NCBI GenBank assembly: GCA_028641055.1 | Contig: JAPCYS010001516.1 | Span: 62,001-126,000, forward strand | Origin: Alopecurus myosuroides | Taxonomy: Eukaryota; Streptophyta; Magnoliopsida; Poales; Poaceae | Reading direction: 5' to 3' | Length of the DNA: 64,000 bases | Notes under the pieces: generated by a model | What the model was told of the DNA's origin: nothing | Database searches by the model: none | The model's input: the letters and a program-made list of their open reading frames with translations, nothing else | Translations under genes and position numbers: made by a program | Part shown: in pieces, positions 12,901 through 14,320 of the stretch | Numbering within the stretch: position 1 is the stretch's first letter | Layout of the letters: each line of letters begins with the position of its first letter

Positions 12901-14320
12901 TAGGGGAAGTAGCCGTTCGTTCTCATGTAGTCGAGGAAGTAGTCGTACTCGTCATCGGTGGTAGTTGTCGATCTTGTCATCGAGGTTCGAAGAGGAAGTA
13001 GACGTAGTCGTGGTCGAGGTACTCGCCACATCCGTGTAGTGGATCTTGGCGGTTCCGGTCTTCATGGCGCGCACGAAGGCGGCCGTCACACAAAATTTGT
13101 AGGGGTTCACGGGCCGAAGATCTTAGCGCGTCGGTAGCCGTCTGTGTCGTCGTAGTCGTTCGGGCGTCGTTTCTGTTGGGTCGTTGGAGATCTTGTCGAC
13201 GCGGAACGGTTCGGTGGGCACCTCGGTCACGAATACACGGGCACGAAGGCCTCGGCCAGAACAAACAGAGCACGGGCATCAGGGTCGTCCTGCACGCGTT
13301 CGGGGTCGAGGAGATGGAGGCCGACGCGGCGAGCGGGTCCGGTGGCCGACCCTGGCAGACGGAGGTCGTCGGCCTTGATGGTGATGATGTCGTCGTTGCC
13401 GGCGCATCGGAGCATCTTGGCCATGTTGTTGAGGTTCATCCCCAAGGAGAGGTTGCGGTCGCAGCGGTAGTGCTCGAAGCCCTCGGAGCGGAGGAGAAGC
13501 GCGACCAGCGCGACGTGGGAGGAGTCCATGGCCTGCAGCGAGAACCCGGTCCCCGAGCAGTCGAAGTTGGCGTCCGTCACCAGCTCCCGGATCGCCTCCA
13601 GCACCTTCCTAAGCAGGCTCCCCTGCACCAGCCGGAGTTCCAACATCTCGGCGGCGGCGGCGGGTGGCTGAGAGGAGGTGTGCGGCTGGCAGCGGGCGGC
13701 GGCCATGGCGGGGAGAGGGGAGGCGACGGCCGGCGGCGGGGCGGGTTTCCGGCAGGGAGCGAGGAAGGGACTCGGGGTGGGGATCGAGCAGAGGAGAGGG
13801 GGCGACGGGGTTGGGGATGGAGCGGGAGGAGAGGGGCGACGGGAGGCAGCGAGCAGAGGAGGTAGCGGGCGAGGCTTGGGAGGACGATGGGATCGAGCGG
13901 GGGGGGGCTCTCTCCCATGCGATGCGTGCGTGTGTGCTGTGAGGAATGAGTGGTGGGAGGACCTAGACGTGAAAAGGAAAGAAGAGGGGTGGCGGCTGCA
14001 AGAAAGTAGGGGGTGGAGTAGAAAAATGCTAGGGTTTCGGCCAGGGGAAGGCCTTGGGCCTAAAATGGGCAGGCTGGGCTCTCTCTCTCTCTCTGAAAAC
14101 TTTTCTCTTTTTTTTTGTTAGGTTATTTTCCAGAATTTGTTTAGGCAATAAGAAAAAATAGATTTAAGCATCAAATCAATTTTGGTAAATTCTTGAAAAC
14201 ATGATTTGATTAATTTATATTAGTTTGTAAGTTTGAAATGCGTGATGATGCGGTATGCCATGCGATGCAAAAAGAAAAACAACGATCAATTCTATTTCGG
14301 GAAAAACCCCGGACGTTACA
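9970..14320 (-). mobile_element. Solo LTR, 4351 bp, minus strand, inserted in Copia gag
   Basis: On the plus strand it runs TGTGACGCCCC to GGACGTTACA, bounded by a perfect CAAAG duplication, with no primer site, purine tract or second LTR, so it is a solo LTR left by LTR-LTR recombination. Sense orientation is minus, because the related LTR at 1-3547 ends CGTCACA. Reading along the sense strand: AT-rich start with a (CT)n run (plus strand about 14081-14097), a GC-rich exon-like block (about 14070-12730) with a PCNA fragment, an AT-rich middle, and the conserved 3' part shared with 1440-3547. The size fits the Sukkula/Erika-type LARD LTRs of Triticeae, but the family is not verified. Confidence 0.88.
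13227..13706 (-). pseudogene. PCNA: Captured PCNA N-terminal gene fragment, fused in frame to LTR sequence
   Basis: The minus-strand frame from the ATG at 13706 encodes 159 residues. Residues 21-114 (13646-13365) match the first 94 residues of plant proliferating cell nuclear antigen almost exactly: it opens [12 protein letters not shown] and includes [47 protein letters not shown] and ends IITIKADD. From memory of grass PCNA I see two replacements, Lys13Arg and Met69Leu. PCNA is the nuclear sliding clamp for DNA polymerases, a trimer of two-domain subunits. Here the similarity stops at Asp94, inside domain I, before the interdomain connector loop, so no clamp can form. The 20 leading residues are Ala/Pro-rich leader-type sequence and the last 45 are unrelated LTR sequence up to TGA at 13229-13227. 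It lies in the sense direction of the LTR and could be transcribed from its promoter. Confidence 0.92.

Follow-up and report, generated by a model that had tools for sequence, protein, structure and literature searches.

The start of a host PCNA gene, comprising about 36 nt of 5' untranslated region (5'UTR) and codons 1-94, was captured within the long terminal repeat (LTR) of a retrotransposon of Alopecurus myosuroides and is now a retrotransposing part of that LTR, since both LTRs of full-length elements carry it. PCNA codons were found in 15 LTRs belonging to 10 insertions, and LTRs of the same family had also taken up the start of a second host gene, a DEAD-box helicase.

In the window, which is the whole stretch of 64,000 nucleotides that was analysed, the captured piece lies in a 4351-bp solo LTR on the minus strand (9970-14320; TGTAACGTCC...GGGGCGTCACA in the sense direction). 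It is a solo LTR, as the first-pass annotation had proposed; it has TG..CA ends and the 5-bp target-site duplication (TSD) CAAAG on either side (9965-9969 and 14321-14325), and its relatives elsewhere have the structure LTR-internal-LTR. It interrupts the gag region of a plus-strand copia element (8676-18364, TSD CATTC) that has matches to gag, integrase and reverse transcriptase, and whose LTRs (8676-9105 and 17935-18364) differ at 27 of 430 sites. A second solo LTR of the same family, on the plus strand and lacking PCNA, occupies positions 1-3547, beginning 597 bp before the window, with the TSD TTTAT; the two solo LTRs are in opposite orientation, about 6.4 kb apart, and have separate TSDs. 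Elsewhere in the window, 31608-43839 and 51823-64000 are 12.2-kb direct copies that are 98% identical and about 20.2 kb apart. The first contains integrase and RNase H matches (40786-43422), a 475-bp part of them occurs a third time at 48803-49277, and the copies look like a duplicated or tandem Ty3-type element.

The fragment is part of a minus-strand open reading frame of 159 amino acids (13227-13706) made up of a leader, PCNA codons 1-94 and an LTR tail. Residues 21-114 matched positions 1-94 of the 127 positions of the Pfam PCNA_N profile (E 2e-46), and 87 distinct PDB sequences were matched by the frame, of which all 60 that were shown were named PCNA or PCNA-like. At the DNA level, 303 bp could be aligned with an intact host PCNA gene, from 14 nt 5' of the ATG, at 97% identity with two gap columns. 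Over the 282 coding bases (13365-13646, minus strand) the window copy had seven differences from the PCNA gene on chromosome C1, five of them synonymous and the others K13R and M68L, and no indel, so the described run of 94 consecutive PCNA codons without stop or indel holds, as does the match to PCNA itself. Coverage of the N-terminal profile ends at position 94, and the fragment accordingly lacks the end of domain I as well as the connector loop and domain II, whose absence had been noted before and which, with domain I, are the features of a functional PCNA.

The leader is in frame, as described, and part of it has an origin that the earlier description lacked: about 36 nt (13647-13682, minus strand) align with the 5'UTR of a host PCNA gene, followed upstream by the LTR's own leader start (13683-13706, minus strand; ATGGCCGCCGCCCGCTGCC...), which is also present in the PCNA-less LTR C1_576m. 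The length of the 5'UTR part ranges from 26 to 49 nt depending on where the 5' junction is drawn, a junction that is blurred because the host 5'UTR and the LTR are both GC-rich. The 45-codon tail (13227-13364, minus strand) is indeed unrelated to PCNA, and it is LTR family sequence in which coding constraint was not seen. The fusion frame gave 1951 hits among the proteins of other species (E up to 0.001). Among the 120 matches listed of these, most cover 57-62% of the query and eight cover 65-87% at 68-84% identity; the tail was absent from all eight sequences that were read, including two of the eight matches with longer cover. The tail was also considered as a coding domain from a host protein and rejected, having no Pfam match and neutral-looking changes.

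The window's own genome (3.57 Gb) was searched with the open reading frame by tblastn; all 76 candidates were scored, giving 49 matches. Fifteen of these are LTRs with PCNA codons, four represent two PCNA genes and a pseudogene, and 30 match only the tail (residues from 111 on), the last being a count of matches rather than of individually verified LTRs. The two host genes are on C1 (L020, here H1) and C4 (L019, here H2). The pseudogene (L027, C3:36041634-36041844) retains its introns, but the beginning of its exon 1 is gone and it contains in-frame stops. In H1, exon 1 continues beyond codon 94 with GSDTVTFMFESP and then a GT donor, 37 nt past the end of the fragment. The suggestion that 13364/13365 is a PCNA exon border is therefore false, and the proposed capture of a host exon within the LTR stands as to the capture and its place; what was taken up is not an exon, being instead 5'UTR plus part of exon 1.

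H1 and H2 have 10 differences in the compared codons. The commonest state among the LTR copies differs from H1 at three sites (codons 31, 34 and 43), at each of which it has the H2 state, and from H2 at seven, and the captured sequence thus falls between the two genes, closer to H1. The 5'UTR part of the window copy aligned with the H2 5'UTR with a local score of 47, reached by none of 300 shuffles, and weakly with that of H1 (score 28, equalled or exceeded in 24 of 300 shuffles). For three further LTRs the scores were 44-47 for H2 (0 of 300 shuffles each) and 29-32 for H1 (0, 2 and 8 of 300). The donor was a PCNA gene of the present lineage, and it may correspond to either of these two loci.

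All of codons 1-94 are present in seven LTRs of five insertions: the window copy, C4:343.31 Mb, C7:199.20 Mb, and both LTRs of the elements at C2:88.78 Mb (TSD CTGTA) and C1:647.86 Mb (TSD CGCAG), the latter with one of its two LTRs split by a further insertion. Shorter pieces cover about codons 31-94 in three LTRs of two insertions, where the nucleotide match starts at codon 27, and codons 73-94 in five LTRs of three insertions. Perfect 5-bp TSDs flank nine of the 10 PCNA-bearing insertions, the exception being C2_254, so that the several insertions with element TSDs expected of an LTR retrotransposon with a captured host fragment were found. The C2:88.78 Mb and C1:647.86 Mb elements also bear out the prediction that new copies would carry two PCNA pieces. 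The piece is not common to all LTRs of the family, a question that the first-pass annotation had raised: the 10 PCNA-bearing insertions compare with 2706 first-look candidates for the internal domain in the genome, which indicates that the PCNA-bearing copies are a small sub-lineage, and the piece is also missing from the second solo LTR in the window.

Full elements of this family consist of LTR, internal domain and LTR, with TGGTATCAGAGC, which we take to be the plant initiator-tRNA-Met primer binding site (PBS), after the 5' LTR. The LTRs are 4145-4449 bp long (16 complete LTRs examined) and the internal domains 474-499 bp. The PBS sequence AATGGTATCAGAGC follows the LTR in L011, L015, L017, L022, L024 and L026, and as it comes after the LTR in the orientation in which PCNA reads forward, the fragment does lie in the sense direction of the LTR, as had been claimed. 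The string TGGTATCAGAGC is also contained in the search pattern for Cassandra (PMC7215508). No Pfam match up to E 0.01 was obtained for gag-pol coding in three sense frames each of the L011 and L022 internal domains, or in three frames of the 3' part of the LTR (window 9970-12730), and the element is classed as non-autonomous. By eye, no purine run was seen as a polypurine tract before the 3' LTR in L011 and L022 or in the last 25 nt of the internal domains of L015, L017, L024 and L026; the internal domain ends with ...GCAATCCC(T/C)TGTTAGTGG..GTCG.C, followed by a TGTAAC-type LTR start. Where a polypurine tract would be expected, L011 (8110-8166) and L022 (6283-6340) have an inverted repeat, GGATTGCG-AGGG-CGCAATCC and TTGTTAGTGGTGTCG. 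Two known classes were considered and rejected: the internal domain would fit a TRIM, for which the LTRs of 4.15-4.45 kb are too long, and the long LTRs would fit a LARD, a class in which the non-coding internal domain is long as well, whereas the internal domain here is just 474-499 bp. At L026, C3:98655126-98664491 and C2:420940651-420950536, LTR or internal units are repeated at a spacing of 4.4-4.8 kb, resembling the tandem arrays of Cassandra.

The family is large and recently active. Forty of the internal-domain candidates were scored, and all 40 aligned with almost the full length of the query, at 93-100% identity. The LTR pairs of four elements had K2P distances of 0.0041, 0.0068, 0.0097 and 0.0122, which indicates recent movement, about 0.2-0.5 million years ago at a rate of 1.3e-8 per site per year. 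The C2 pair (L011/L012, C2:88775388-88784595) is mosaic and was left out of the dating; its TSD is intact, and its LTRs differ at 64 of 152 sites in one mid window and less elsewhere, which suggests exchange with another copy after insertion.

Comparison with PCNA-less LTRs located the junctions of the captured piece. In C1_576m, both the left flank (602-635, ATGGCCGCCGCCCGCTGCC...) and the right flank (from 941) are common with the PCNA-bearing LTRs, and the right flank starts with AAGGCCGACGAC, which is identical to PCNA codons 91-94. This 12-nt stretch (13365-13376 in the window, minus strand), the same in host PCNA and in PCNA-less LTRs, is a candidate for microhomology at the 3' junction. 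Among nine further PCNA-less copies that were compared, the 12 nt are present in six, and the other three are missing that part of the tail. On the most straightforward view, about 305 bp of LTR gave way to PCNA, which was joined at the 12-nt microhomology. The reverse order, in which the PCNA-less copies would have lost PCNA down to 12 nt, is possible; a tree of the LTR tails from 36 copies, in which seven of 33 inner branches were well supported and the PCNA class was split, is too weak to polarise the two states.

The piece lies in the zone of the LTR with the greatest divergence among relatives, a GC-rich zone at 12821-14021 (minus strand) in the window. The 16 complete LTRs begin with about 300 bp of AT-rich sequence, after which the G+C content is higher for about 1.2 kb. 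A motif of the GGCCCA/AGCCCA type followed by AACCCTA or ACCTAACCC was found at about LTR positions 195-335 in 13 of 17 LTR sequences, adjoining the GC-rich zone on its 5' side, in a count made without a shuffle control. We take these motifs to be site II and telo-box-like elements, a pair typical of housekeeping and cell-cycle promoters.

Upstream of the PCNA position, seven of the 17 LTR sequences (16 complete, one partial), the window LTR not among them, contain a sense-strand piece encoding MVAMKSKEQEDEAPSDRVPHLPWMRYPVDIDSFSG. A protein search with this piece found three relatives, the best of them (E 3.6e-15) from Festuca and containing a DEAD domain (PF00270), and a genome search gave eight matches, seven in these LTRs and one in a host gene (L059, C4:41.37 Mb). 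The helicase piece is 90-92% identical to that gene and consists of 54 nt 5' of the first ATG and about 42 codons, the match stopping about 14 nt short of the exon-1 donor. In both captures, and there are two cases, the piece is in the sense direction and runs from a portion of the 5'UTR through the start codon into exon 1 without reaching its end; neither crosses an intron. Both would fit copying of mRNAs toward their 5' ends.

Modules appear to have been mixed between copies. The window LTR and the LTR at C4:343.31 Mb (C4_343) differ at five of 282 PCNA sites, but in the initial 613 bp of the LTR 42-50% of the sites that align are different, so the PCNA module sits in different surroundings in the two. 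Twenty stretches beside other internal domains, chosen from the 40 scored internal matches, each had at least one segment of at least 150 bp that was common to none of 27 others (blastn, E up to 1e-4); these stretches were not individually confirmed as LTRs, and one, L064, is unlike the others. Identity to the query in the internal domains of the 20 sampled copies was 93-97%. When one private segment was used to search the genome, 52 matches were obtained (40 of 77 candidates scored), mostly LTR-like pairs 4-5 kb apart, and the segment proved to be a mosaic of sharply bordered blocks, 93-100% identical to differing sets of copies; none of the scored candidates could be recognised as its host donor. 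In a Pfam search for other host pieces, ten long sense open reading frames from eight LTR loci gave only PCNA_N (three of ten, one below the cut-off), and in ten sense frames of four other copies, with stops masked, the only matches were two weak ones to the same frame, below the cut-off. The helicase piece, too, goes undetected by Pfam.

The most probable origin of these LTRs, in our judgement and on the sequence comparisons above, is template switching onto the 5' parts of host mRNAs during reverse transcription, followed by spread as a passenger. During reverse transcription of an ancestor, the enzyme would have left the GC-rich zone in the 5' part of the LTR for a host PCNA mRNA at the 12-nt identity AAGGCCGACGAC, copied in the direction of the 5' end of the mRNA and returned to the LTR RNA upstream, so that about 305 bp of LTR would have been exchanged for about 36 nt of 5'UTR and 94 codons. 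The recombinant LTR would then have been duplicated to both ends of the element and spread by ordinary retrotransposition, with deletions and swaps of the 5' part of the LTR following later. That the template was mRNA, that it was reached by template switching rather than by repair at the DNA level, and that the events took place in this order are the parts of this account that we infer.

A DNA-level origin is rather unlikely. A break or gene conversion in the LTR could have been filled with GC-rich DNA from the starts of the PCNA and helicase genes and the product then retrotransposed. Genomic DNA fits the pieces equally well, as no intron is crossed; junctions at microhomology arise in DNA repair too; and the mid-LTR divergence of the C2 pair suggests that exchange after insertion does occur. 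However, filler DNA would be free as to strand and position, whereas both pieces, in the only two cases, are in sense, with the start codon and within exon 1, and the mixing of modules between copies is as expected of recombination between RNAs.

A broader proposal, in which the zone would be a fast-changing cassette that takes up sense host gene starts, swaps them between copies and keeps the look of a housekeeping promoter, which may aid escape from silencing or expression in dividing cells, and in which the PCNA version would be translated and selected, seems improbable to us.

The PCNA piece itself is most likely a passenger, and a role as functional cargo, with an LTR-encoded PCNA peptide or small RNAs serving the element or the host and the frame kept by selection, is slightly more improbable still. 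Six of the seven LTRs with all codons have no stop in frame, while one has a stop at codon 17. Among the distinct changes in these seven LTRs, eight of 20 are nonsynonymous compared to an expected 14-15 (P 0.0007-0.0022), and among all PCNA copies 14 of 27 compared to 19.5-20.1 (P 0.007-0.012; in a previous tally, with two junction codons included, 16 of 29, P 0.018). This shortage makes a poor fit to a pure passenger. It is only suggestive of a selected peptide, and it was not taken as proof of one because most of the changes are private to single, in part solo, LTRs, which selection on the element cannot reach. The test was also chosen after the data had been seen, and it is driven in part by host-like synonymous states: of the 12 synonymous changes, three are identical to what one of the present-day host genes has at that site, as would be seen after renewed entry of host variants, and P becomes 0.014-0.036 when they are left out. 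Sequences with which the full-codon LTRs can be compared look neutral, with six of seven distinct changes nonsynonymous in the truncated PCNA pieces (expected 5.2-5.5) and 32 of 41 in the 45 tail codons compared across 23 copies (expected 28.5; probability of a count this low, 0.92), the tail count being an ungapped comparison in which an indel near the end of one row makes a few changes artefacts. The presence of at least one earlier ATG also speaks against a function: counted from LTR position 301, the GC-rich zone has one ahead of the frame in the window LTR and five in C4_343. The peptide, moreover, would lack the end of domain I. As to small RNAs, 146 of the 262 21-mers of the window fragment match exon 1 of H1 exactly, and trans-acting small RNAs against host PCNA are possible; such PCNA-matching small RNAs, or a truncated PCNA peptide, could also arise as by-products of a passenger.

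Capture by a DNA transposon nested in the LTR is very improbable: Pack-MULEs and Helitrons are common carriers of gene fragments in maize (PMC2774510), but the flanks of the PCNA piece are LTR sequence shared with a PCNA-less LTR, leaving no space for termini of their own, and the outer ends are TG..CA with 5-bp TSDs. A processed PCNA retrogene inserted independently into one LTR would likewise supply an intron-free host coding piece, but this can practically be dismissed, because the piece is truncated within exon 1 and lacks the 3' end of an mRNA, its flanks are continuous with the LTR sequence of C1_576m, and, in place of a separate insertion with its own target duplication, the same junction occurs in several independent LTR insertions and in both LTRs of two elements.

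The location matters because it is the LTR that contains the promoter and that remains when an element is reduced to a solo LTR, so that captured gene starts are doubled in a full element and outlast the loss of its interior. The family is young and the LTR zone differed in all 20 of the further sampled copies, which makes it a system for testing capture by template switching, bias of strand and position, and any small-RNA effect on PCNA, an essential host gene.

Host gene pieces in LTR retrotransposons have mostly been described from the interior of the element. Among the open-licence literature, judged by titles and the beginnings of abstracts, no paper was found that matches a capture of PCNA or of a host gene inside an LTR. 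In maize, 425 elements with gene fragments and at least 189 captures were reported (PMC2774510), and captured genes number 672 in rice and 1343 in sorghum (PMC3726574). A 2026 review of gene capture in plants covers Bs1, 3'-transduction by a TRIM, and BARE-2 and Veju as products of template switching, and in its available text gives 5'-transduction as unreported in plants (PMC13317346). Bs1 and other transducing maize LTR retrotransposons resemble the present family in that a host gene fragment is multiplied by the element, and Bs1 also in combining pieces of several genes (PMC13317346, PMC2774510). In contrast to those elements, as far as the available accounts describe them, the pieces here are inside the LTR, present twice per full element and kept in solo LTRs. 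Under the conditions of the maize survey, as given in the part available, no element apart from Bs1 had pieces of more than one nuclear gene, whereas here two host genes are represented in one LTR (PMC2774510).

The Cassandra TRIM, with a 5S sequence in its LTR, is similar in being non-autonomous, in having host-derived LTR sequence, TGGTATCAGAGC beside the LTR and tandem LTR-internal arrays; in what is available of its description it has short LTRs with a conserved Pol III gene sequence, unlike the giant LTRs with truncated starts of protein genes in a minority of copies found here (PMC7215508). Complex Triticeae elements were attributed to template switching by Sabot and Schulman (PMC1950507). 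BARE-2 (BARE-1 x Wis-2) and the Veju TRIM likewise acquired foreign sequence by abnormal template switching, in the case of BARE-2 in the LTR, but according to the same text of the review the donor was another retrotransposon or unknown DNA, while here the donors are identified host genes (PMC13317346). Recombination between family members during bursts has also been described (PMC5668417), and this family similarly contains recombinants within one LTR retrotransposon family, with the difference, as far as that account goes, that the mosaic here is concentrated in the LTR's GC-rich zone, where pieces of host genes form part of it. That LTR retrotransposons capture genes was already known; what appears to be new is the location in a giant LTR, the starts of two host genes, and their persistence in solo LTRs.
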